Shown in pieces: positions 35,949-61,425 of a stretch of 64,000 nucleotides of DNA. The notes under the pieces are model-generated. The model saw nothing but the letters and a program-made list of their open reading frames with translations. It ran no database searches and was not told where the DNA came from. How positions within the stretch are numbered: position 1 is the first letter of the stretch; every line of letters starts with the position of its first letter. Source of the DNA: Eudoraea adriatica DSM 19308 (GTDB lineage Bacteria > Bacteroidota > Bacteroidia > Flavobacteriales > Flavobacteriaceae); contig NZ_KB907552.1 of the NCBI RefSeq assembly GCF_000382125.1, positions 57,456-121,455 on the forward strand. The letters run 5' to 3'. A program made the translations under genes and the position numbers.

Positions 35949-37046
35949 TTATTTCTTTAAGGCTTCTGCATTAATAATTTTCTCCTGATGATTTATTGAC
36001 TCCTGGTGAATAGCTTTAAACATTCGCAACACAAATTCTTCACTCAATCCTTTAGATTCGCCTTCCAGGATCATTTTACCCAATATTTCGTTCCAACGGT
36101 TGGTCTGAAGGACGGCTACATTGCGCTGTCTTTTTAATTCACCAATCCCATCAGAAACTTTCATTCTTTTACCAAGGGTGTCTATAAGCTGATTGTCAAT
36201 AATATCAATTTGGGTACGGAGATTGCTAATTTTTTGGCTGTATTCAGCCTCCTCATCCGTTTCCTTTCTAATCTTTAAGTCTTCCATAATTTGCACTAAT
36301 CTTTTCGGAGTTACCTGTTGCGCGGCATCGCTCCAGGCGTTATCCGGATCATGATGTGTTTCAATCATTAATCCATCAAAATTCAGATCCAGGGCAGTTT
36401 GTGATATATCGAAGATCATTTCCCTGTTCCCACTAATATGTGAGGGATCATTAATCAAAGGCAGGTCTGGAAATTTAGTTTGCAATTCAATTGCCATTTG
36501 CCATTCCGGTATATTCCGATATTTGGTTTTCTCATAGGTCGAAAACCCACGATGTATAACACCCAGCTTTGTAATATTAGCCTTTGACAATCGTTCAACT
36601 GCCCCCAGCCATAAAGAAAGATCAGGGTTTACGGGGTTTTTAATAAGGATAATTTTGTCCGTTCCTTCCAAAGCATCGGCAATTTCCTGAACGATAAAAG
36701 GGCTTACGGTAGATCGGGCACCTATCCAAAGCAAATCCACGTCGTGTTCCAATGCCAGATCTACATGATTTTTGTTTGCGACTTCGGTGGCCGTCTTAAG
36801 GCCAGTTTCTTCTTTTACCTTTTTTAACCAATTAAGGCCTATTGCTCCGACTCCTTCGAAGTTACCCGGTCTGGTCCTCGGTTTCCAAATGCCGGCCCGA
36901 TAGTAGTTTACATCTGTATCTTTAAGCTCATGAGCTATACCTAACACCTGACCTTCAGTTTCTGCGCTGCATGGCCCTGCAATTACCAAAGGATGTGATA
37001 ATTTCATATCATCTAGCCATGATCTTAACTTTTTTGAATTCTCCAT
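35949..37046 (-). CDS. DAHP synthase (type I beta)-chorismate mutase fusion
   Basis: A 365-residue two-domain enzyme. Residues 1-260 match the type I beta DAHP synthase fold (VIAGPCSAETEGQVL, YYRAGIWKPRTRPGNFEGVG, INDPSHISGNR), the first step of the shikimate pathway. Residues about 270-355 match an AroQ chorismate mutase (ISNLRTQIDIIDNQLIDTLGKRMKVSDGIGELK, in part). It is the last gene of the pheA operon, 2 nt after tyrA. Confidence 0.93.
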   Translation of the reverse strand: MENSKKLRSWLDDMKLSHPLVIAGPCSAETEGQVLGIAHELKDTDVNYYRAGIWKPRTRPGNFEGVGAIGLNWLKKVKEETGLKTATEVANKNHVDLALEHDVDLLWIGARSTVSPFIVQEIADALEGTDKIILIKNPVNPDLSLWLGAVERLSKANITKLGVIHRGFSTYEKTKYRNIPEWQMAIELQTKFPDLPLINDPSHISGNREMIFDISQTALDLNFDGLMIETHHDPDNAWSDAAQQVTPKRLVQIMEDLKIRKETDEEAEYSQKISNLRTQIDIIDNQLIDTLGKRMKVSDGIGELKRQRNVAVLQTNRWNEILGKMILEGESKGLSEEFVLRMFKAIHQESINHQEKIINAEALKK

Positions 37047-37048
37047 TA

Positions 37049-37912
37049 TTATCTGTCTTTATTTTGTGGTATTCCTTTTAATATTAATTTTATCTTGTTG
37101 GTATTGTCCATTTCATTATATATGCCTTCAAAATTATTGGCGATTAGCTTTTGTTTAAAAGCTTCCAGATTTTGAATATATTCATCCAAAGTTTCCACCA
37201 CATTTTCTTTATTTTGCTGGAAAATAGGGGTCCACATAGCCGGTGAGCTTTTTGCTAATCTCACTGTACTTTCAAAACCACTTCCTGCCATATCAAAAAT
37301 GTCGCGCTCATTTTTTTCTTTTTCAATTACCGTTTTACCTAGCATAAAAGAACTTATATGTGACAGGTGGGAAACGTAGGCAATATGCCGGTCATGCGCT
37401 TCGGGATTCATATATCTTATTCTCATGCCCAGTCTACTAAAAATACTCAATGCCCTTTCCTGGAGCTTAAATGCTGTTTTCTCTACTTCACAGATTATAT
37501 TTGTTTTACCTGCAAACAATTCCGTGACAGCAGCAGAAGGACCGGAAAATTCGGTTCCGGCAATAGGATGACAAGCCAGAAAATTTCTTCTTTTGGGATG
37601 ATCTGCAATTATACTGCAAATTTCTGACTTTGTTGACCCGGCATCTATCACCAATGAATCATCACCAATGCGGTCTAACAATTTTGGAAGTTCCTTTACA
37701 ATGGCATCGACCGGGATACTAACTATAACAATATCAGCTTCTGAAAATTCCTTGGAGCCGGCAATACCGTCAATAATACCAAGGCTAATAGCCTCTTCAA
37801 GATGAGCTTCACTTGCATCCATCCCAAAGATCGATGCTTCCGGATACTTGCATCTCAGGTCCTTTGCCATTGAGCCCCCGATTAATCCTGTACCTACTAT
37901 TATTGCGTTCAT
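37049..37912 (-). CDS. tyrA: Prephenate dehydrogenase TyrA
   Basis: A 287-residue NAD(P)-dependent enzyme for the tyrosine branch. IVGTGLIGGSMAKDL is the Rossmann loop, VIDAGSTKSEIC and ACHPIAGTEFSGPSAA are family motifs with the catalytic His in HPIAGTE. There is no fused chorismate mutase, which is instead fused to DAHP synthase downstream. It is third in the operon. Confidence 0.93.
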   Translation of the reverse strand: MNAIIVGTGLIGGSMAKDLRCKYPEASIFGMDASEAHLEEAISLGIIDGIAGSKEFSEADIVIVSIPVDAIVKELPKLLDRIGDDSLVIDAGSTKSEICSIIADHPKRRNFLACHPIAGTEFSGPSAAVTELFAGKTNIICEVEKTAFKLQERALSIFSRLGMRIRYMNPEAHDRHIAYVSHLSHISSFMLGKTVIEKEKNERDIFDMAGSGFESTVRLAKSSPAMWTPIFQQNKENVVETLDEYIQNLEAFKQKLIANNFEGIYNEMDNTNKIKLILKGIPQNKDR

Positions 37913-37921
37913 CTTTCCAAC

Positions 37922-39067
37922 TTAAAATCTGTCTATCGCTTCCTTTATCTTTGCTTCTGTTACGCAAAGTGAAAATCTGATGTATCCCTCCCCATTGCTC
38001 CCAAAAATAGTCCCTGGTGCAACGAAAATATTTTTATCCTGTAATATTCTATCAATAAAATCTTCTGAGTGCAGTGATCCTTTTGGCAATTTAGCCCAAA
38101 CGAACATACCAACGGTATTAGAATCATAGGTACATTGCAATTTATCTGCCAACTGAAACATTAACTTTCTCCTGGCTTTATATGTACTATCTAATTGATC
38201 AAACCAGTCCTTCCCACTTTTTAGTGCTTCGATTGCCCCTTTCTGAATTCCATAGAACATTCCGGAATCCATATTGCTTTTTACTTTTAAAATTGCAGTT
38301 AAATTCTCCTCACTTCCCAAAACCATTCCAACTCTCCACCCTGCCATATTGAAGGTTTTACTGAGAGAATTAAGTTCTATAGCTATATCCTTGGCTCCTT
38401 TTACGCTTAAAATACTTAACGGATTATTACTTAAAACAAAGCTGTAAGGGTTGTCATTTATTAATAAGATATTTTGCTCTTTTGCAAAAGCCACCAATGC
38501 CTGAAATTGAGAAGAACTGGCCTTAGCCCCTGTGGGCATATGCGGGTAACTAACCCACATTAGTTTTACACCGGACAAATCTTGCTGCCTCAGGCTTTCT
38601 AAATCTGGAAACCAACCATTATCAGCTGCCAAATCATATTGCTTTGGCACAGCTCCTACCAGTTTTGTGACTGATGTATAGGTGGGATAGCCGGGATTTG
38701 GAATTAATACCTCATCTCCTTCGTTCAAAAAAGCCATACTAATATGCATAATACCTTCTTTGGAACCCATAAGTGGTAATACCTCATTCGAGGGATCTAC
38801 ATCCACATCAAATTTTTCTTTATAAAACTTAGCTATTGTTTCCCTTAGCTCAGGGAGTCCCTGATAACTTTGGTATTGATGCGCTCCGGCATGTCCTACC
38901 GATTCCCGGAAGGAATTAATTACGGCTTCAGATGGCGGGAGATCGGGGCTGCCTATGCCAATATTAATTATTGGTTTTCCGGCAGCAGCCATGGCTCTGA
39001 CTTCCCGCAATTTTTTCGAGAAATAATACTCCTCTATAGATCTTAAGCGATCAGCAGTTTGTATCAT
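37922..39067 (-). CDS. Class I aminotransferase, probably aromatic or prephenate
   Basis: A 381-residue fold-type I PLP enzyme. The PLP Lys is in SLSKTFNMAGWRVG, with NPGYPTY and LINDNPYSFV in the cofactor pocket. Overall it resembles the LL-diaminopimelate/aspartate aminotransferase group. Its place between pheA and tyrA points to transamination of phenylpyruvate, hydroxyphenylpyruvate or prephenate; the exact substrate is not settled. Its start overlaps pheA by 4 nt. Confidence 0.86.
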   Translation of the reverse strand: MIQTADRLRSIEEYYFSKKLREVRAMAAAGKPIINIGIGSPDLPPSEAVINSFRESVGHAGAHQYQSYQGLPELRETIAKFYKEKFDVDVDPSNEVLPLMGSKEGIMHISMAFLNEGDEVLIPNPGYPTYTSVTKLVGAVPKQYDLAADNGWFPDLESLRQQDLSGVKLMWVSYPHMPTGAKASSSQFQALVAFAKEQNILLINDNPYSFVLSNNPLSILSVKGAKDIAIELNSLSKTFNMAGWRVGMVLGSEENLTAILKVKSNMDSGMFYGIQKGAIEALKSGKDWFDQLDSTYKARRKLMFQLADKLQCTYDSNTVGMFVWAKLPKGSLHSEDFIDRILQDKNIFVAPGTIFGSNGEGYIRFSLCVTEAKIKEAIDRF

Positions 39068-39891
39068 ATTCGGCCATTTTTATATTCCCCCAAAACCTTA
39101 AAATCTTCGGACATTATATTCAATAATGATTTCGCTTTGGCAAAATGATTATACTCCTCAAAAGTTATGTCCACAAAAAATGCATATTTCCAAGGTGTTT
39201 CAATAATTGGCAACGATTGAATTTTTGTCAAATTCAAGTTGCAATCACTCATAACATTTAATACAGTGGCAAGACTCCCTCTCTTATGATCTGTAATAAA
39301 GCGAATGGAAGCCTTGTTAATCTCTTCTTTTGAAATTTCTTTATTCTTTGTCTTTACGATTATAAATCTTGTTGAATTATTCTTTATAGTTTGAATTTCG
39401 GGCTCAATAATTTTTAAATCGTACAGATCTGCAGCTACAGCAGGAGCAATTGCGGCTATTCCTTTTAATTGGTTTTCCTGAATTTGTTTTGCTGTTTCTG
39501 CCGTATCAAAATCTTCAACCATTTTTATATGGGGCTGGGATTTCAAATACTCCCTGCATTGTAACAAAGCCATGGGATGCGAACGCACTTCCCTGATATC
39601 TGACAATTCCTGTCCATTCAGAACCATTAGATTGTGATGGATATTCAAATAATATTCACCTATAATGTGCAAATTATTCTGATATACCAGAGCGTAATTG
39701 GGAATTATAGATCCGGCTATTGAATTTTCAATGGCCATTACACCTTTATCCGCGGAATTATTAAGCAACTTGTCTACCAAAGCATGAAATGTCAGGCATT
39801 CCACTAAATCTATATCATCACCAAAGTAATCCAAAGCTACCTGATGGTGATTAGACCCTTTAATTCCTTGTATCGCTATTTTCAAACCCAT
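39064..39891 (-). CDS. pheA: Prephenate dehydratase PheA with divergent ACT domain
   Basis: Converts prephenate to phenylpyruvate. The 275-residue protein has a catalytic part (about 1-185) with the TRF motif at 174-176 and the AIENSIAGSI motif near 53-62, then an ACT domain (about 195-270). The usual ESRP phenylalanine-binding motif reads QSLP at 225-228 and the GALV motif reads GSLA at 205-208. Feedback inhibition may therefore be weak or different. It is the first structural gene of the operon and lies just after the attenuator. Confidence 0.94.
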   Translation of the reverse strand: MGLKIAIQGIKGSNHHQVALDYFGDDIDLVECLTFHALVDKLLNNSADKGVMAIENSIAGSIIPNYALVYQNNLHIIGEYYLNIHHNLMVLNGQELSDIREVRSHPMALLQCREYLKSQPHIKMVEDFDTAETAKQIQENQLKGIAAIAPAVAADLYDLKIIEPEIQTIKNNSTRFIIVKTKNKEISKEEINKASIRFITDHKRGSLATVLNVMSDCNLNLTKIQSLPIIETPWKYAFFVDITFEEYNHFAKAKSLLNIMSEDFKVLGEYKNGRI

Positions 39892-39908: not shown

Positions 39909-39934
39909 AAAAAAAAATCCCGTATTTCACGGGA
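39909..39934 (-). terminator. Attenuator terminator upstream of pheA
   Basis: On the minus strand TCCCGT (39934-39929) pairs with ACGGGA (39923-39918) around a 5-nt loop, followed by nine U residues (39917-39909). This is a compact intrinsic terminator located after the leader peptide and 17 nt before the pheA start codon. Confidence 0.88.
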
Positions 39935-39962
39935 CCTTATTTGATATATTGTTCACAATATT

Positions 39963-40034
39963 CTAAAACAGTCCCGTACTTCTTTTAAAAAAGAAATAAA
40001 AATAGGTTCCGTTCCAAAAATAATTGCGAGTCAT
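39963..40034 (-). CDS. pheL: Phe/Tyr-rich leader peptide of the pheA attenuator
   Basis: A 23-codon ORF beginning MTRNYFW and ending STGLF with a TAG stop. It has 6 Phe, 3 Tyr and 1 Trp, with the run YFYFFF at codons 11-16. It is too short for ordinary gene calls. Aromatic residues at 10 of 23 positions, placed directly before overlapping antiterminator and terminator arms, indicate a regulatory leader that senses charged tRNA-Phe and perhaps tRNA-Tyr. It is functionally equivalent to enterobacterial pheL but shows no obvious sequence relation to it. Confidence 0.82.
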   Translation of the reverse strand: MTRNYFWNGTYFYFFFKRSTGLF

Positions 40035-40184
40035 TTTTCTATAATTCTGTGGCTAAGGTAAATATTAAATTTAAATATCGATGTTTATAAATATATTTTT
40101 TTGAATATTTATAGTAAGCCCTATTTCTTTGCGGATATTTTTTGGAATGTAAATTTTTTTTGAGAATTTATCATTCCTTTAAAT

Positions 40185-40291: not shown

Positions 40292-41197
40292 ATGTCTTTA
40301 AAGGTCATAAATATCTCTAAGAGTTTTGGGTCACAAAAAGCACTGAATAATGTGTCTTTTGAGATAAAGAAAGGGGAGATTGTGGGTTTCTTGGGGCCAA
40401 ATGGTGCAGGGAAGTCCACTATGATGAAGATTCTTACTACCTACAGCAAAGCAGACACTGGCGAAGCTTTTGTTAATGGGTTTAACGTGCTCGCGAAGCC
40501 AAAAGAAGTACAAAAATGCATAGGATATCTACCGGAGCATAACCCGCTCTACAAAGACATGTATGTAAAGGAATATCTGGCTTTTAATGCCGAGGTTTAC
40601 AAAATATCCAAAAATAGAATTGACCAGGTAATTGTACAAACCGGATTAAGCGCTGAAGCCCATAAAAAAATTGGCGCTTTATCGAAAGGATATCAGCAGC
40701 GCGTAGGTCTTGCTGCAGCTCTGTTGCATGACCCCGAAGTACTTATTTTAGACGAACCCACAACAGGCCTGGATCCTAATCAGCTTATTGAAATAAGAAA
40801 GCTTATAAAGCAAATTGGCAAAAAAAAGACTATCCTGCTATCAACTCATATAATGAAAGAAGTTGAAGCTGTTTGCGATAGGGTACTGATTATTAATAAC
40901 GGAACTTTAGTGGCAGATAAAAAGCTTGCCGATCTAAGGGAGGAGAATGATCAGATAATAGAAGTTGAATTTGATTATCGTGTGGAAGAGGCATTCCTGG
41001 AAAGGCTACCCAATGTTACCAAGGTGGTCAACACCGGAGGATTCCTATATGAAATTACTTTTGGCACTACTAAAGATATGCGGCCGGTTGTTTTTGATTT
41101 TGCCCATGACAATAAACTCAAAACGCTGCAGCTCAGCAGAAAGAATAAAAATCTGGAAGTATTGTTCACAGAATTAACCGGCAACTCAACAAGCTAA
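40292..41197 (+). CDS. gldA: Gliding motility ABC transporter ATPase GldA
   Basis: A 301-residue ABC ATP-binding protein: Walker A GPNGAGKSTMMK (near 36-47), signature LSKGYQQRVGLA, Walker B VLILDEPTTGLDP and the switch His in LLSTHIMKE. The match is to GldA, which in Flavobacterium works with the permease components GldF and GldG; these are not in the window. Other ABC-2 type exporters share this architecture, so the GldA name rests on family resemblance and host. Its stop overlaps the convergent GIN lipoprotein gene by 4 nt. Confidence 0.85.
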   Translation: MSLKVINISKSFGSQKALNNVSFEIKKGEIVGFLGPNGAGKSTMMKILTTYSKADTGEAFVNGFNVLAKPKEVQKCIGYLPEHNPLYKDMYVKEYLAFNAEVYKISKNRIDQVIVQTGLSAEAHKKIGALSKGYQQRVGLAAALLHDPEVLILDEPTTGLDPNQLIEIRKLIKQIGKKKTILLSTHIMKEVEAVCDRVLIINNGTLVADKKLADLREENDQIIEVEFDYRVEEAFLERLPNVTKVVNTGGFLYEITFGTTKDMRPVVFDFAHDNKLKTLQLSRKNKNLEVLFTELTGNSTS

Positions 41198-44310: not shown

Positions 44311-47079
44311 TTATTCCTCAGCCATATTTGGGGCAAGCCATTTCCTGGCGCTAATCAATTCGGTATCTTTCCTTCGGGCATAATCAATAATCTGGTCCTC
44401 TGTTATCTTTCCCAATCCAAAATACCTTGCTTGTGGATGTGCAAAATAATAACCACTCACACTGGCCGCAGGAAACATGGCCAGGCTTTCCGTCAATTTA
44501 ACTCCTATCCTCTTTTGTACGTCTAGTAATTCCCAGATGGTCAATTTTTCGGTATGATCCGGACAAGCCGGGTAGCCCGGTGCCGGTCTAATTCCTCTGT
44601 ACTTTTCTTCTATCAAATTCTCATTGGTGAGTTGTTCCTTATTTGCATATCCCCAATATGTAGTTCGCACCTCTTTATGTAAATACTCCGCAAAAGCTTC
44701 CGCGAGTCTGTCGGATAACGCCTTGATCATTATGGCATTGTAATCATCAAGGTTTTTTTCATAAGCTGCTGCCAATTCACTGGTACCAAAACCAGCTGTT
44801 ACGCAAAAACAGCCAATATAATCCTGAATTCCCGTTCCCTTTGGAGCAATGAAATCTGCAAGGGCAATATTTGGAACACCTTGTCTTTTTTTGGATTGCT
44901 GACGCAGGGTCCTAAAAATATATTTTTCATTATCCTGTTTCTCAACAAGGGTATCTGTATTCTCAAGATGTGTTACCACCTCTATATCGTCATCATTGAT
45001 AGTATTGGCCTGAAAGAGTCCGAAAACCGCTTTTGCCGTCAATAATTTCTGCTCGAATATCTTTTTCAGCATTGCCTGTGCATCCTTATATAACTCGGAA
45101 GCCTGCTCCCCCACGATTTCATCCTTTAAAATATTCGGGTATTTTCCATGCAAGTCCCAACTTCGGAAAAAAGGTGTCCAATCTATAAATTCCTCTAAAA
45201 GCTGAAGATCCATATCATCAATTACCTCTATCCCCAATCTTTCAGGCTTCTTAATATCAGAAACACTCCAGTCTATAGGAAACTTATTCTTTCTTGCATC
45301 TTTAAGGCTTAGGTATTCTTTCTGTTTCCCTCGATTTATGAATTTCTCCCTGAAAGAAGAATAGTCGGTTTTGACCAAAGCCTTATAATCATCCGAAGTA
45401 TCTTTCTGCAATAGATCACCCAGGACTGTAACAGCCCTGGAGGCATCATTTACATGAACAACAGAGGCACTATACTGAGGATCGATCTTTACCGCAGTAT
45501 GCGCTTTACTGGTCGTTGCCCCGCCTATTAACAAAGGTATTTTAAACCCCAGACGTTCCATTTCTTTGGCCAGATGAACCATTTCATCCAAAGACGGGGT
45601 GATTAGTCCGCTCAACCCTATTATATCTACCTGTTCTTCTGTGGCTTTTTGAATTATTTTTTCAGGGGGTACCATTACTCCCAAATCTATGATTTCATAA
45701 TTATTACAAGCCAGTACCACACTTACAATATTCTTACCTATATCATGCACATCCCCTTTAACTGTAGCCATTAAGACTTTTCCTGCAGACTGCGGCACAT
45801 TGTCTTTATCTTCCTCAATAAATGGCAATAAATGGGCAACCGCTTTTTTCATAACCCTTGCAGACTTAACTACCTGCGGAAGAAACATTTTTCCACTACC
45901 GAAAAGATCCCCTACTACATTCATGCCTTTCATTAAATGACCTTCAATGACCTCAATTGGCTTAGTAACTGCCAATCTTGCTTCTTCCACATCGGATACA
46001 ATATATTGATCTATTCCTTTTACCAAAGCCCGCGTAATTCTTTCCTGTAGTGGTTCTTTACGCCAGGAATCATCTGCTTTCTTATCCTTGGTCTTACCGA
46101 CAACTGTTTCAGCAAACTCAAGAAGCCTTTCCGTAGCATCATCCCTTCTGTTTAAAATGACATCTTCCACCCTTTCCAGCAAATCTTTTGGAATATCATC
46201 ATAGACTTCAAGGATAGCGGGATTTACGATTCCCATATTCATCCCGGCCTGTATGGCATGATACAAGAAAACCGAATGCATGGCCTCACGAACCGGTGTA
46301 TTCCCCCTAAACGAAAAAGAAACATTGCTCACTCCCCCACTCACACTGCTATGTGGAAGGTTTTTACGAACCCAGGCGGTAGCTTCAATAAAATCTACAG
46401 AATTCCTTTCATGTTCCTCCATTCCCGTTGCAACAGGAAAAATATTAAGATCAAAAATGATATCCTCCGGAGGGAAATTTACACGATTTACCAATATATC
46501 ATAGGACCGTTTGGCTATTTCAATGCGCCTCTCATAATTATCTGCCTGCCCTTTTTCGTCAAAAGCCATTATAATTACAGCTGCTCCATAAAGACGAATT
46601 AATTTGGCCTGACGGATAAATTCTTCTTCTCCTTCCTTTAAACTGATTGAATTAACTACGCACTTACCTTGAATTAGCTGTAATCCGGCCTCAATAATCT
46701 CCCATTTAGAGCTATCTATCATAATGGGAACACGGGCTATGTCTGGCTCTGCCATCACTAAATTCAAAAACCTGATCATGGCTTGTTTTCCATCAATCAG
46801 GCCATCGTCCATATTTATATCAATAATCTGGGCGCCACCTTCTACCTGATGCCTGGCTATTTCGAGGGCTTCCTCATATTGCTCTTCTTTAATTAGTCTT
46901 AGAAACCTTCTTGATCCGGCAACATTTGTTCTTTCCCCTACATTTATGAAATTACTTTCAGGAGTGATAACAAGTGGCTCAAGACCTGCGAGTTTGAGGA
47001 ATCTTGGTTTTGCAATGGCATCAATATCATCCTCCTGCCCTTTTACAGAATTCATTTGTATGTTGGTTGCATTTTTCAT
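44311..47079 (-). CDS. metH: Methionine synthase, folate/B12/activation domains (MetH part 2)
   Basis: A 922-residue protein covering the C-terminal three modules of cobalamin-dependent MetH. They are a pterin-binding barrel (about 40-320; [14 protein letters not shown]), the cap and B12 domain (about 350-590; DVHDIGKNI contains the cobalt-ligand His, with [13 protein letters not shown]) and the AdoMet reactivation domain (about 600-920; [17 protein letters not shown]). The homocysteine domain is encoded by the adjacent upstream gene with a 3-nt gap, so the two proteins must act together. Confidence 0.95.
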
Positions 47080-47082
47080 TTA

Positions 47083-48102
47083 TTAAAATTGAACCCCTTT
47101 TAATTCAGAAAATGTAAATTTTCTGGGTTTATATCCCTTTGTCAATTCAGCAATAGCTTTTATATGTTCAGGTGTTGATCCGCAGCATCCACCAATTATA
47201 TTCACCAGACTTTTGTCAAGATATTCTTTTATCTGAATTGCCATCTGTTCCGGTGTCTGATCATAGTCCCCAAAAGCGTTAGGCAGGCCTGCATTGGGAT
47301 GTGCCGAAATCGCAGCTTCTGTTCGATCTGAAATAGCGTCTAAATGAGGCACCAGTTGCTTTGCTCCCAGGGCACAATTAAAACCTACAGACAATAGAGG
47401 AATATGACCAATTGATATTAAAAAAGCTTCAGCGGTCTGTCCTGATAATGTGCGCCCCGAGGCATCAGTAATGGTTCCGCTGACCATAACCGGTGTTTGA
47501 ATATTTCGTAACTGTTTTACCTCTTCAATTGCGAATAGTGCAGCTTTAGCATTAAGAGTGTCAAAAACAGTTTCTACCATGAGAATATCCACACCTCCAT
47601 CTATAAGTGCCTCTACCTGCTGTTTGTAAGCTAATCGCAATGTCTCAAATGAAACCGCCCTGAAACCCGGATCATTTACATCGGGTGACATACTTGCCGT
47701 TTTATTTGTTGGCCCAATACTTCCCACCACAAACCTTGGTTTATTTGGTTCCTTTTCCGTAAATTCTCTGGCTACCCGCTTTGCTATTCTGGCAGACTCA
47801 TAATTAAGTTCATATACCAAATCTTCCATATGATAATCCGCCATGGCAATAGAAGTGCTGGAAAATGTATTCGTCTCCACTATATCGGCTCCTGCCTCAA
47901 AATATTTGGCATGAACTTCGGCTATAGCTGCAGGCTGGGTTAGTGTCAGTAAGTCATTATTACCCTGCAATGGATAAGGCCAATCTTTAAAACGATTCCC
48001 CCTAAAGTCTGACTCAGTAAATTTATAGCGTTGAAGCATTGTACCCATTGCGCCATCCAGTATCATAATCCGTTCCTTCAGTATATTCTTTATCTTCTTC
48101 AT
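47083..48102 (-). CDS. Methionine synthase, homocysteine-binding domain (MetH part 1)
   Basis: A protein of about 339 residues (from the Met at 48102) forming the homocysteine methyltransferase barrel of Met[13 protein letters not shown] is the N-terminal hallmark, [16 protein letters not shown] carries the first zinc Cys and [15 protein letters not shown] the Cys pair. The frame is open to 48141, but [17 protein letters not shown] is the normal MetH start. It is first in the transcript controlled by the SAM-I riboswitch. Confidence 0.94.
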
Positions 48103-48243
48103 ATGTTTCCGTTCTATAAGAATTCCATTTTTAAACTTCAAGATATGAACTACCTAACCATTATAACCTAATAACAGTATGATCAATATCTGCTTGTTGG
48201 ATATAGCTATCGGGCTATACTACAATATTATCAAGAAAAATAT

Positions 48244-48264: not shown

Positions 48265-48269
48265 TCTGT

Positions 48270-48387
48270 GTTATCTAGCCCTAGTTGCACTATAAAAGAA
48301 GCCTAGTGGTAGAATGTAGCACCTTCTTTAAAGTTAAAGGGTTGCTAAGGTTTCAACGGGTCTAGTCCCTCCTCCTTTCTTGATAAC
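48270..48387 (-). promoter_or_regulatory. SAM-I (S-box) riboswitch upstream of metH1-metH2-metF
   Basis: Minus-strand aptamer of 118 nt. P1 is GTTATC (48387-48382) with GATAAC (48275-48270). The S-box landmarks follow in order: ATCAAGAAAGGAGGAGGGAC, GACCCGTTGAAACCTTAGCA and AAGGTGCTACATTC. These match the conserved core (AAGAGAGGxGGAGGGA, GAAxCCxxGCAACC, AGGTGCTAA). It should lower expression of the methionine synthase genes when S-adenosylmethionine is plentiful. Confidence 0.95.
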
Positions 48388-48413
48388 ATTGTCAATGTTG
48401 TAATGAACAGATA

Positions 48414-58314: not shown

Positions 58315-59607
58315 CTATGCCAGAACAGATTTATCAATTGTGGCAAAAGCTTGTTCCAAATCGGCTTTAAGGTCATCCAGATTTTCCAATCCAACAGATA
58401 AACGTATCAGGTCTTTTGTTACTCCAGTAGATTCCTGCGCTTCATCATCCAATTGCTGATGCGTGGTACTTGCCGGATGAATTATTAAAGATTTGGTGTC
58501 ACCAATATTGGCCAATAAGGAAAAGATTTGGGTTCCGTCGGCTATTTTCTTTGCAGAATCATATCCCCCTTTAACACCAAACGTTATTAAGCCGCTTTGG
58601 CCTTTTGGCAAGTAAGCCTCGGCCTCGGCAAAATATTTACTACTTTTTAAACCCGGATAATTTACCCAGGTAACTTCATCCCTGCTATCCAGCCATTCTG
58701 CCAGATCAAGCGCGTTTTCACTATGTTTTTTCATACGCACTTCCAGAGTTTCCAGGCCCTGGATTATTTGAAATGCATTAAAAGGGCTCAAACATGCGCC
58801 ATGATCCCTTAAGCCTTCAATACGCACTTTAGCAATAAAGGCAGCGGGGCCCAGTGCATCATGATAAACCAAACCATGATATCCTGCTGAAGGTTCCGTA
58901 AATTCGGGAAATTTCCCGTTTGCCCAATCAAAGGTTCCGGCATCTATTACAGCCCCTCCCAATGCGGTGCCATTGCCATTGATATATTTGGTAAGAGAAT
59001 GTATTACGATATTGGCCCCATGCTCAATAGGGTTTAACAAGGCGGGTGTTGCTACTGTATTATCCACAATAAATGGAATTTTAGCAGCCTTTGCTTCTGC
59101 CGAGATAGCTTTTAGGTCAAGAACATCCAGCTTTGGGTTCCCCAACGACTCCACAAAAATAGCCCTTGTATTCTCCTTTACAGCCTTCCCAAAATTAGAA
59201 GGGTCTGAGGGGTCTACAAATGTTGTTGTAATCCCAAATCGGGGAAGGGTAACACTCAACAAATTATAAGTACCCCCATAAAGGCTATTGGAAGCTACAA
59301 TATGATCTCCGGATTTCAACAGAACCAATAAGGCTGTATTAATAGCTCCGGTTCCGGACGAAGTAACTACGGAGGCAATACCTCCTTCCAGGGCAGCAAG
59401 TCTTTGCTCCAAAATATCATTCGTGGGATTATTAATCCTGCTGTAAATATTTCCAAACTCAGCTAAAGAAAATAAATTAGCCGCATGTTCAGAATCATTA
59501 AAAACATAGGCGGTACTTTGATAAATAGGTACTGCCCGTGTCCCGGCATTTAAAGTTGTGTCGTGGCCGGCGTGTAGGGCATTAGTTGAAAATTTGTGTT
59601 CACTCAT
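58315..59607 (-). CDS. metY: O-acetylhomoserine sulfhydrylase MetY
   Basis: A 430-residue PLP enzyme of the Cys/Met family that makes homocysteine from O-acetylhomoserine and sulfide. ALHAGHDTTLNAGTRAVPIYQ is the typical MetY N-terminus, the PLP Lys is in IHSLTKYINGNG, and SSGTGAINTALLVLL binds the cofactor. It is first in the operon, behind a SAM-I riboswitch. Confidence 0.94.
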   Translation of the reverse strand: MSEHKFSTNALHAGHDTTLNAGTRAVPIYQSTAYVFNDSEHAANLFSLAEFGNIYSRINNPTNDILEQRLAALEGGIASVVTSSGTGAINTALLVLLKSGDHIVASNSLYGGTYNLLSVTLPRFGITTTFVDPSDPSNFGKAVKENTRAIFVESLGNPKLDVLDLKAISAEAKAAKIPFIVDNTVATPALLNPIEHGANIVIHSLTKYINGNGTALGGAVIDAGTFDWANGKFPEFTEPSAGYHGLVYHDALGPAAFIAKVRIEGLRDHGACLSPFNAFQIIQGLETLEVRMKKHSENALDLAEWLDSRDEVTWVNYPGLKSSKYFAEAEAYLPKGQSGLITFGVKGGYDSAKKIADGTQIFSLLANIGDTKSLIIHPASTTHQQLDDEAQESTGVTKDLIRLSVGLENLDDLKADLEQAFATIDKSVLA

Positions 59608-59790
59608 GATGTTTGTTTCTTTGTATTCAAAAAGAATACTGGTTCCTAATAGAAATTGTTTTCAAAACGATTTTTAAATCATTTTTGTTCATATAAATCA
59701 GCACAATCCAACCCTAAGTGCTACACTGAGCGGTTCGGAAATATTAAAATGTTATAAAGAAAGACGAATTACCAGGTGTAATTCTTGATT

Positions 59791-59898
59791 GTTATCTGTC
59801 ACATTTTTACTGTGATAGAATTTAGCACCTTCTTTGCGTTTGAAACAAAGGGTTGCTAAGGTTTCAAAGGGTCTATTCCCTCCACCTTTCTTGATAAC
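59791..59898 (-). promoter_or_regulatory. SAM-I (S-box) riboswitch upstream of metY-metX/thrA-metZ
   Basis: Minus-strand aptamer of 108 nt. P1 is GTTATC (59898-59893) with GATAAC (59796-59791). Core motifs ATCAAGAAAGGTGGAGGGAA, GACCCTTTGAAACCTTAGCA and GAAGGTGCTAAATTC match the S-box consensus. About 180 nt of AT-rich leader separates it from the metY start. No strong terminator is visible there; a GTATTC-TTTTT-GAATAC hairpin about 20 nt before the ATG suggests control of translation. Confidence 0.95.
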
Positions 59899-59928
59899 TT
59901 TTCAACAAGTGATTGAACTTACTAAAAG

Positions 59929-59976: not shown

Positions 59977-61233
59977 TTACAAATTGAATGCTGATTTTAC
60001 CTTATCCACCATATTCAATTTCTCCCATGTAAATAACTCCACTGTTTTTTCAACTCTCCCATTATAAGGCGATTCAAATACTTTTGACACTATTCTTGGT
60101 TCCTTCCCAAAATGTCCGTAAGCCGCTGTTTCCAGATAAATAGGATTTCTTAACTTAAGTCGGTCTTCAATATCATAAGGCCTCATTTTAAATAGTTCCG
60201 CTACTTTCCTGGCTATTTCACCATCACTTAAAGCCACTTTTGAAGTTCCATAAGTATCTACAAAAATAGAAGTAGGCTCTGCCAATCCAATTGCATAACT
60301 TACCTGTACTAATATTTCATCAGCAACTCCTGCTGCAACCAGATTTTTTGCCGCATGTCTTGCTGCATAAGCGGCGCTCCGGTCTACTTTGCTAGGATCC
60401 TTTCCACTGAAAGCGCCTCCACCGTGGGCACCTTTTCCTCCATAGGTATCCACAATAATTTTTCTTCCGGTTAAACCCGTATCTCCATGAGGTCCACCAA
60501 TAACAAATTTACCGGTAGGATTAATATGGTAAGTAATCTTATCATTAAACAAGGCCTGGGTACTCGGTGGCAATTTTGCTATAACTCTCGGCAATAAAAT
60601 GGTAATGAGGTCTTCTTTGATTTTTGACAGCATTTTATCATCATCCTTGTCAAACTCATCATGTTGGGTAGATATTACTATGGTATCAATCCGAACAGGT
60701 TTATTATCATCCGAATACATAATTGTAACCTGTGCTTTAGCGTCAGGTCTTAAATAAATTATATCTTTATTTTCTCTTCTTAACAGCGATAGCTCCTCCA
60801 GTATTCGATGCGAAATATCCAATGCCATTGGCATATAATTTTCACTTTCGTTAGTTGCATAGCCGAACATCATGCCCTGATCGCCTGCACCTTGATCTTC
60901 CTTTTTTTCGCGTTCAACTCCCTGATTTATATCCTTAGACTGCTCGTGTATCAATGATATGACTCCACATGAATCACCACTGAACTGATATTCGCCTTTG
61001 GTATAACCAATTTTATTAATAACATCTCGTGATATTTGTTGAAGATCTACATAGGTATGGCTTTTTACTTCACCTGCCAAAATTACCTGACCCGTCGTTA
61101 CCAGGGTTTCACAGGCTACCTTACTTTCTGAATCAAAGGCTAAAAAATTATCTAATAATGCATCACTAATCTGATCGGCAATCTTATCCGGATGTCCTTC
61201 ACTAACAGATTCTGAAGTAAACAAATAGGCCAT
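59977..61233 (-). CDS. metK: S-adenosylmethionine synthetase MetK
   Basis: A 418-residue enzyme that makes SAM from methionine and ATP. FTSESVSEGHPDKIADQISD at the N-terminus, GAGDQGMMFGYA and GGGAFSGKDPSKVDRSAAY are diagnostic. It is slightly longer than the usual 385-400. Its leader carries a SAM-II-like riboswitch, so the product probably represses its own synthesis. Confidence 0.97.
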   Translation of the reverse strand: MAYLFTSESVSEGHPDKIADQISDALLDNFLAFDSESKVACETLVTTGQVILAGEVKSHTYVDLQQISRDVINKIGYTKGEYQFSGDSCGVISLIHEQSKDINQGVEREKKEDQGAGDQGMMFGYATNESENYMPMALDISHRILEELSLLRRENKDIIYLRPDAKAQVTIMYSDDNKPVRIDTIVISTQHDEFDKDDDKMLSKIKEDLITILLPRVIAKLPPSTQALFNDKITYHINPTGKFVIGGPHGDTGLTGRKIIVDTYGGKGAHGGGAFSGKDPSKVDRSAAYAARHAAKNLVAAGVADEILVQVSYAIGLAEPTSIFVDTYGTSKVALSDGEIARKVAELFKMRPYDIEDRLKLRNPIYLETAAYGHFGKEPRIVSKVFESPYNGRVEKTVELFTWEKLNMVDKVKSAFNL

Positions 61234-61267: not shown

Positions 61268-61308
61268 GTATGCTGGAAAAGTAGTTTACAACTCAGATTG
61301 ATCTGTAG

Positions 61309-61413
61309 AAACTGCTTTAGCATTTTTTCTTGTGCAGGATCTTAAGGATTGTAACCGATCCACTAAAATATAATCTGCATAAGAGGTTGCAATCAGTCAA
61401 ATCCCTCCTCTTA
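61309..61413 (-). promoter_or_regulatory. SAM-II-like riboswitch upstream of metK
   Basis: P1 is TAAGAGG (61413-61407) with CCTCTTA (61386-61380). The loop carries GATTTGACTGATTGCAA, and the 3' part TGCTAAAGCAG is at 61322-61312. These match the SAM-II pattern GATTTxA...TTGCA...GCTAAA with its pseudoknot. Compared with short alphaproteobacterial SAM-II RNAs there is an insertion of about 50 nt that folds as a hairpin (TGCAG/CTGCA closing, GGAT/ATCC inside). It is unrelated to the SAM-I elements nearby. Confidence 0.83.
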
Positions 61414-61425
61414 ATTTAATGTTAA

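Follow-up and report, generated by a model that had tools for sequence, protein, structure and literature searches.

Upstream of pheA in Eudoraea adriatica DSM 19308, a short reading frame crowded with aromatic codons is followed by a terminator-like hairpin, which raises the question of whether the two act together to tie transcription of the aromatic amino acid operon to the supply of phenylalanine and tyrosine. Judged from the sequence of the locus and of its relatives, the leader is very probably a ribosome-mediated transcription attenuator that uses Phe and Tyr codons to serve this operon. The window, by which we mean the whole 64,000-nucleotide stretch of DNA that was analysed, carries the operon on its minus strand: pheA, prephenate dehydratase (39064-39891; PF00800, E 5e-59, with an ACT domain match below Pfam's cut-off); a class I/II aminotransferase (37922-39067; PF00155); tyrA, prephenate dehydrogenase (37049-37912; PF02153 and PF20463); and a DAHP synthase fused to chorismate mutase (35949-37046; PF00793 and PF01817, chorismate mutase II). 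Pfam confirms the gene families that a preliminary description of the locus had assigned to these four genes. The neighbour upstream of the leader, an ABC transporter ATPase identified by family search (40292-41197), is divergent and lies on the plus strand.

Anatomy of the leader and a proposed switch

The leader ORF (39963-40034; this and all following leader features are on the minus strand) reads MTRNYFWNGTYFYFFFKRSTGLF in 23 codons followed by TAG. Ten of the 23 codons are aromatic (Y5, F6, W7, Y11, F12, Y13, F14, F15, F16 and F23), and the main control codons, 11-16 (YFYFFF; 39987-40004), are recognised in the sequence and in the alignment of leaders. Codons 20-22 contain segment 2, ACGGGACU (39970-39977), a putative antiterminator strand supported by sequence, shuffles and covariation. 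Its partner, segment 3, GGUCCCGU (39929-39936; sequence and covariation), may pair either with segment 2 or with segment 4 (39916-39923; covariation and terminator scan), the 3' arm of the terminator. The U9 tract of the terminator (39917-39909; sequence and terminator scan) lies 17 nt before the pheA ATG (39891). ACGGGAC (39977-39971) and GTCCCGT (39935-39929) are exact reverse complements of each other, with one G-U pair in addition. The reading frame with its aromatic run, the exact complement and the U9 terminator had all been described beforehand and are confirmed in the sequence.

The whole leader folds with a z-score of -4.83, and none of 200 shuffles is equally stable. A complement to the terminator arm as good as that in the leader occurs in 2 of 200 dinucleotide shuffles, and the region holds two terminator-like sites (one per strand, from one hairpin) against 0.3 expected. 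Searched with a covariance model of the leader, its own genome gives a single strong site (E 2e-21), the next having an E-value of 0.04. In the minimum-energy fold, codons 6-9 (segment 1, 40019-40009) pair with a stretch (39971-39961) that takes in the end of segment 2 as well as the stop codon, an assignment that covariation also supports. Seven further pairs of the window leader (40023-40029 with 39953-39959) show no conservation in relatives. The preliminary description also placed a small AT-rich hairpin between segments 2 and 3. It is present in the sequence (39961-39946), but its energy is no better than that of shuffles, 32% of which are as stable. As a conserved unit this hairpin was rejected, as it reaches p 0.05 by energy in 10 of 143 loci, which is about chance.

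A probable -7 box, TACCTTAG (40053-40060), begins 26 nt before the leader ATG; we take it to fit the Bacteroidota -7 promoter type TAnnTTTG. The motif TAnnTT[TA]G is found 11-48 nt upstream of the leader start at 95 of 142 loci against 10.7 expected from shuffles, and its commonest position, -26 (45 loci), is that of the window leader. A TTG stands 13-26 nt further upstream of the box in 59 of these 95 loci and a TTTG in 43; no TTTG was seen at that distance in the window. A sigma-70 type scan around the leader returned nothing above chance.

These elements suggest the following scheme. RNA polymerase would start about 15 nt before the leader ATG, judging from the promoter-like box, with a ribosome following. 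When Phe- or Tyr-tRNA is short, the ribosome would stall within codons 5-16 and leave segment 2 free to pair with segment 3, permitting readthrough into pheA, the aminotransferase, tyrA and the DAHP synthase/chorismate mutase gene. When charged tRNA is plentiful, a ribosome that has moved past codon 16 would cover segment 2 and the 3:4 terminator would form. Should the leader remain untranslated, 1:2 could take the end of segment 2 and the terminator would be favoured. What can be read from the sequences themselves is the ORF, the promoter-like box, the spacing and the three helices with their conservation and joint changes; the transcript ends, the ribosome stalling and the response to Phe and Tyr would follow from the scheme.

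Conservation and joint change of the pairing segments

pheA was detected in 45 of 60 relatives. Thirty of those loci, together with the best 80 of 577 candidates in named records, form a set of 110 that leans to close relatives and contains the L011 and L013 leaders a second time, as L041 and L065. A blind scan for a terminator preceded by an ORF 14-35 codons long, in which some stretch of seven residues has five or more aromatic ones, finds an aromatic leader and terminator before pheA at 106 of 109 loci, missing L020, L024 and L028 and leaving out L066, which comes without upstream DNA. Among 60 chosen distant pheA loci the same scan finds both elements at 37. Control gene starts match in 6 of 566 cases, of which five are hits on the pheA leader itself, entered at an internal Met; with those five removed, 1 of 561 controls remains. 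The scan rule had been relaxed after Flavobacterium leaders were seen just under a stricter limit, and the earlier scan, with a stricter aromatic fraction and a shorter range, gave 82 of 109 loci, 36 of 60 distant loci and 1 of 566 controls.

Tallied by kinship labels over L001-L030 and L117-L176 together, leader and terminator occur at 41 of 43 loci of the same family, 3 of 8 from other families of the order, 17 of 23 from other families of the class (f17 5/5, f18 5/5, f19 3/5, f22 3/6, f23 1/2) and 3 of 16 from the rest of the phylum. The 13 misses within the class are of several kinds. Four loci (L139, L142, L143, L155) have an aromatic ORF and no terminator by the scan rule, L028 has a terminator with a weaker ORF, L154 has the terminator alone, and seven (L020, L024, L117-L119, L150, L156) have neither leader nor terminator. 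L020 and L024 are same-family genomes whose pheA is without leader or terminator by the scan, and the DNA upstream of pheA in L020 contains repeated AT-rich units bearing ATCCCGCC...GGCGGGAT hairpins.

Three loci from the same phylum but outside the class (L125, L127, L134) combine a class-like PheA (E 1e-93 to 1e-91) with an aromatic leader, whereas the other 13 sampled phylum genomes outside the class have a more divergent PheA and no leader match. Given this distribution, it is possible that the operon was transferred together with its leader. A fourth genome outside the class, G190, also has a class-like PheA. In addition, a metagenome bin labelled Rhizobium sp. (L102) contains a pheA resembling that of Flavobacterium, preceded by a leader of the same kind, and is probably mislabelled or mixed.

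Joint change was assessed on 54 close-group leaders, an alignment chosen on the position of segment 2 and so biased toward structure. In the antiterminator (2:3) 96.8% of cells are paired and four of seven pairs have changed on both sides; in the terminator (3:4) the figures are 100% and three of seven. For each helix the pairing or covariation score is reached by none of 500 shuffles. By the count of further pair types the terminator shows no excess over shuffles in these 54 leaders (500 of 500). For 1:2, 83.5% of cells are paired, against at most 50.6% when the strands are slid by 1-3 columns, and both sides have changed in 23 cells, where shuffles give 12.9 (sd 2.6) and none of 500 reaches the observed count. 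Two weaker measures give 6 pairs changed on both sides against 4.4 (reached by 56 of 500 shuffles) and 18 further pair types against 15.7 (reached by 36 of 500). The longer 1:2 partner was picked once the fold of a single member had been seen, and was then tested; over 143 loci, 78 pass the 5% level against dinucleotide shuffles and 48 against synonymous recoding. A first test of segment 1, confined to a narrow region around segment 2, was for that reason weak (30 of 143 loci). The leader thus appears to have the enteric 1:2, 2:3 and 3:4 anatomy, with covariation support for 1:2 in the close group. The preliminary description had considered the leader simpler than the enteric version, with no clear pause hairpin. 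That view fails in the close group given the support for 1:2 in the 54 leaders, though RNAalifold, run on the same leaders, predicted neither 2:3 nor 1:2 but the terminator, together with a small helix within the coding sequence.

Between lineages, segments 2, 3 and 4 vary as a set, for example CGGGAC/GTCCCG/CGGGAC, CGAGAC/GTCTCG/CGAGAC, AGGATT/AATCCT/AGGATT and GCCGGG/CCCGGC/GCCGGG. GAGCGGGA is one of several further segment 2 variants, found outside the close group with segments 3 and 4 that match it. As segment 2 is defined as the best complement in each locus, shuffles subjected to the same choice are the fair measure, and segment 2 exceeds 95% of its shuffles in 81 of 143 loci, against an expectation of about 7. 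When segment 3 is swapped between loci, the own partner ranks in the top 5% in 42 of 143 loci and for 20 of 57 distinct segments. The relatives therefore combine conserved aromatic codons with compensatory changes in both pairings, the outcome that the preliminary description had named in advance as support for the attenuation logic at its core.

Ribosome position and competing explanations

Counted from the first base of the last control codon, segment 2 lies 10-14 nt away in 125 of 143 loci, whereas the position of the stop codon varies. This spacing is a raw count to which many related loci contribute and in which the control codon was required to lie 5' of segment 2. Segment 2 ends between -17 and +14 of the stop codon in 134 of 143 loci, and in the other 9 the chosen segment 2 ends at least 18 nt before it. 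In seven leaders (L092, L096, L100, L103, L106, L110, L082) length differences of 2 nt or point changes place the stop before or on segment 2. Two further Flavobacterium leaders, L084 and L088, likewise have the stop before or on segment 2 with the RNA pairing kept. Because the stop codon shifts and segment 2 is retained, the peptide tail is not the conserved part, and the Flavobacterium stop-shift leaders represent a natural experiment that sets peptide tail against RNA. The last five control positions are aromatic in 117-125 of 125 distinct leaders, with F and Y interchanging; as the scan selects aromatic runs, these figures describe the set and are not independent proof.

A ribosome was modelled at each codon by masking the RNA to 12 nt past the first A-site base, an assumed footprint, and folding the rest at 25 C. 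For the window leader the predicted probability of the terminator is at most 0.25 with the A-site at codons 4-15, 0.41 at codon 16 and 0.80 at codon 17; it is 0.91 from codon 18 to the stop and also 0.91 when the leader is untranslated. In this model, antitermination in the window leader would yield to termination at the last control codon. Before segment 4 has been made, the predicted probability of the antiterminator is 0.98 at codons 10-15 but also 0.91 in the untranslated leader, where the model prefers 2:3 to 1:2; for 1:2 to prevail, it would have to form first, or 3:4 would have to be able to form. The equilibrium model is not general: stall and stop differ by more than 0.3 in 51 of 142 loci, and within the close group in 14 of 53, and no switch is obtained with the His and Trp leaders of the same genome.

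An alternative to termination is translation attenuation, where the leader and hairpins would gate access to the pheA start codon. The terminator hairpin does end 23 nt from the pheA start, but at the window locus it is followed by nine T and, among the loci listed, the distance from hairpin to pheA ranges over 8-235 nt, which fits termination better than the masking of a start codon. A T-rich tail is required by the scan, so its presence at the other loci is no evidence. We regard translation attenuation as unlikely.

A somewhat less probable idea still is that a riboswitch or a T-box type tRNA-binding leader senses the signal directly, the ORF being an accident of AT-rich DNA. The leader is indeed structured, and TTT and TAT codons are common in such DNA. 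However, an Rfam search over the leader finds no family at or above cut-off, leader and terminator seldom occur together at control starts from these genomes, and in the Eudoraea genome the leaders of the His and Trp operons have codons for His and Trp instead. The regions concerned (L111 and L112) show that hisG is preceded by a His leader, MRNKNTHHHFYTCTQAR and a stop codon (HHH), and trpE by a Trp leader, MNFGIVNTWWWNILRLMS and a stop codon (WWW), each with a terminator-like hairpin. This match between leader codons and pathway argues against AT-rich DNA as the source of the F and Y richness at pheA. Upstream of ilvD in the same genome no clear leader was seen by eye. Least probable of all is the view that the hairpin simply terminates a gene further upstream, or that the spacer is unregulated, and that the ORF arose by chance. 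Such a view might draw on the 51 of 566 control starts that have a terminator-like hairpin within 260 nt (at least five of them the pheA terminator itself), but the adjoining upstream gene is divergent and leader and terminator coincide at 1 of 561 controls.

Known leaders and prior reports

As a probable ribosome-mediated attenuator, the leader invites comparison with the enterobacterial pheL-pheA attenuator, whose mechanism in E. coli is the textbook case. Both have an aromatic-codon leader peptide, 1:2, 2:3 and 3:4 helices and an intrinsic terminator before pheA (RF01859, Phe_leader). Unlike in pheL-pheA, segment 2 occupies the final sense codons here, the control codons include Tyr, and the leader heads a four-gene Phe/Tyr operon. 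A search of the window leader up to E 10 does not list RF01859 (cut-off 55 bits), and of the relatives tried a few give sub-threshold matches, the best being L126 with 39.3 bits. Bacteroid-trp (RF01692), described in Rfam as a tryptophan peptide leader, belongs to the same phylum as the pheA leader and differs in having Trp codons and a trp operon. The trpE leader of the same genome matches it with 68.2 bits (cut-off 49), and it is not listed among the Rfam matches of the window pheA leader. Within this Trp leader, GTCGTGA has its complement, TCACGAC, in the loop and 3' arm of the terminator, a layout unlike that of the pheA leader. The His leader has no Rfam match up to E 1.

Two other families were considered and set aside. 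The trpB motif (RF04312) scores 21.4 bits on the window leader against a cut-off of 59 (E 0.87) and was taken as chance. BTnc231 (RF04180), a B. thetaiotaomicron RNA validated by Northern blot according to the available part of PMC7366714, matches the L126 pheA leader weakly (28.2 bits against 80.4) and was dropped. A search of 149 class genomes finds BTnc231 matches in nine, one of them above cut-off; no aromatic-run leader ORF was seen at these nine loci, and the sole downstream same-strand ORF of at least 120 amino acids (L190) is unlike PheA.

Lopatovskaya et al. reportedly published work in 2010 that may cover Bacteroidetes. Searches of open-access literature listed no experimental study of a pheA attenuator in Bacteroidota. 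The preliminary description knew of no characterised case in Flavobacteriaceae, a statement that has to be amended. For F. psychrophilum, the accessible portion of a 2021 study notes clues to leader-peptide attenuation before amino-acid operons, and it counts pheA and hisG among conserved 5' elements found in other genera and lacking Rfam hits, the pheA element being structured (PMC9723704). It stands before the same gene, and in the same bacterial family, as the leader here; unlike the present analysis, that portion gives no leader sequence, pairings or mechanism for it. The Flavobacterium leaders found here occupy the same place upstream of pheA, a comparison by position alone. The trpE leader, as Bacteroid-trp, is also a known element, and neither case is experimental. 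Elsewhere, B. thetaiotaomicron sORFs are called 'reminiscent of leader peptides' in the portion of PMC7366714 available, Bacteroid-trp appears in a table in the part of PMC2864571 seen, and in PMC8305728, which deals with his genes across the superphylum, the word 'leader' does not occur and attenuation comes up in one general passage. The terms Bacteroidetes, Bacteroides and Flavobacteri are absent from PMC2965389. Novelty is limited, as the attenuator is ordinary in kind, well conserved and already half-announced in print. What is added is the three-helix anatomy, the presence in five more families of the class and a proposed mechanism for a pheA 5' element reported without one; the leader is a candidate new RNA family.

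Bacteroidota appear to initiate translation mostly without Shine-Dalgarno pairing. Ribosome-mediated attenuation depends on a ribosome that follows RNA polymerase closely. The probable attenuators of several Bacteroidia families, with control codons 10-14 nt from segment 2 in 125 of 143 loci, offer a ready test of coupling in the phylum. Uncoupled 'runaway' transcription could be fairly widespread in bacteria, as the part of PMC7858274 available suggests. We see an evenly balanced case for a complete Phe/Tyr attenuator being an old feature of Bacteroidia, kept across families as pairing sequences and stop codon drift; if so, transcription and translation would be tightly coupled at these leaders in Bacteroidota.

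The 64 kb window also contains two SAM-I riboswitches and one SAM-II (48268-48389, 59789-59900 and 61307-61416, all on the minus strand). By position, the SAM-II element precedes a metK-like gene (59977-61233, named from its translation read by eye), and the SAM-I elements precede a methionine synthase pair (47083-48141 and 44311-47079) and a gene like those of Cys/Met-metabolism PLP enzymes (58315-59607), these names likewise coming from the translations.
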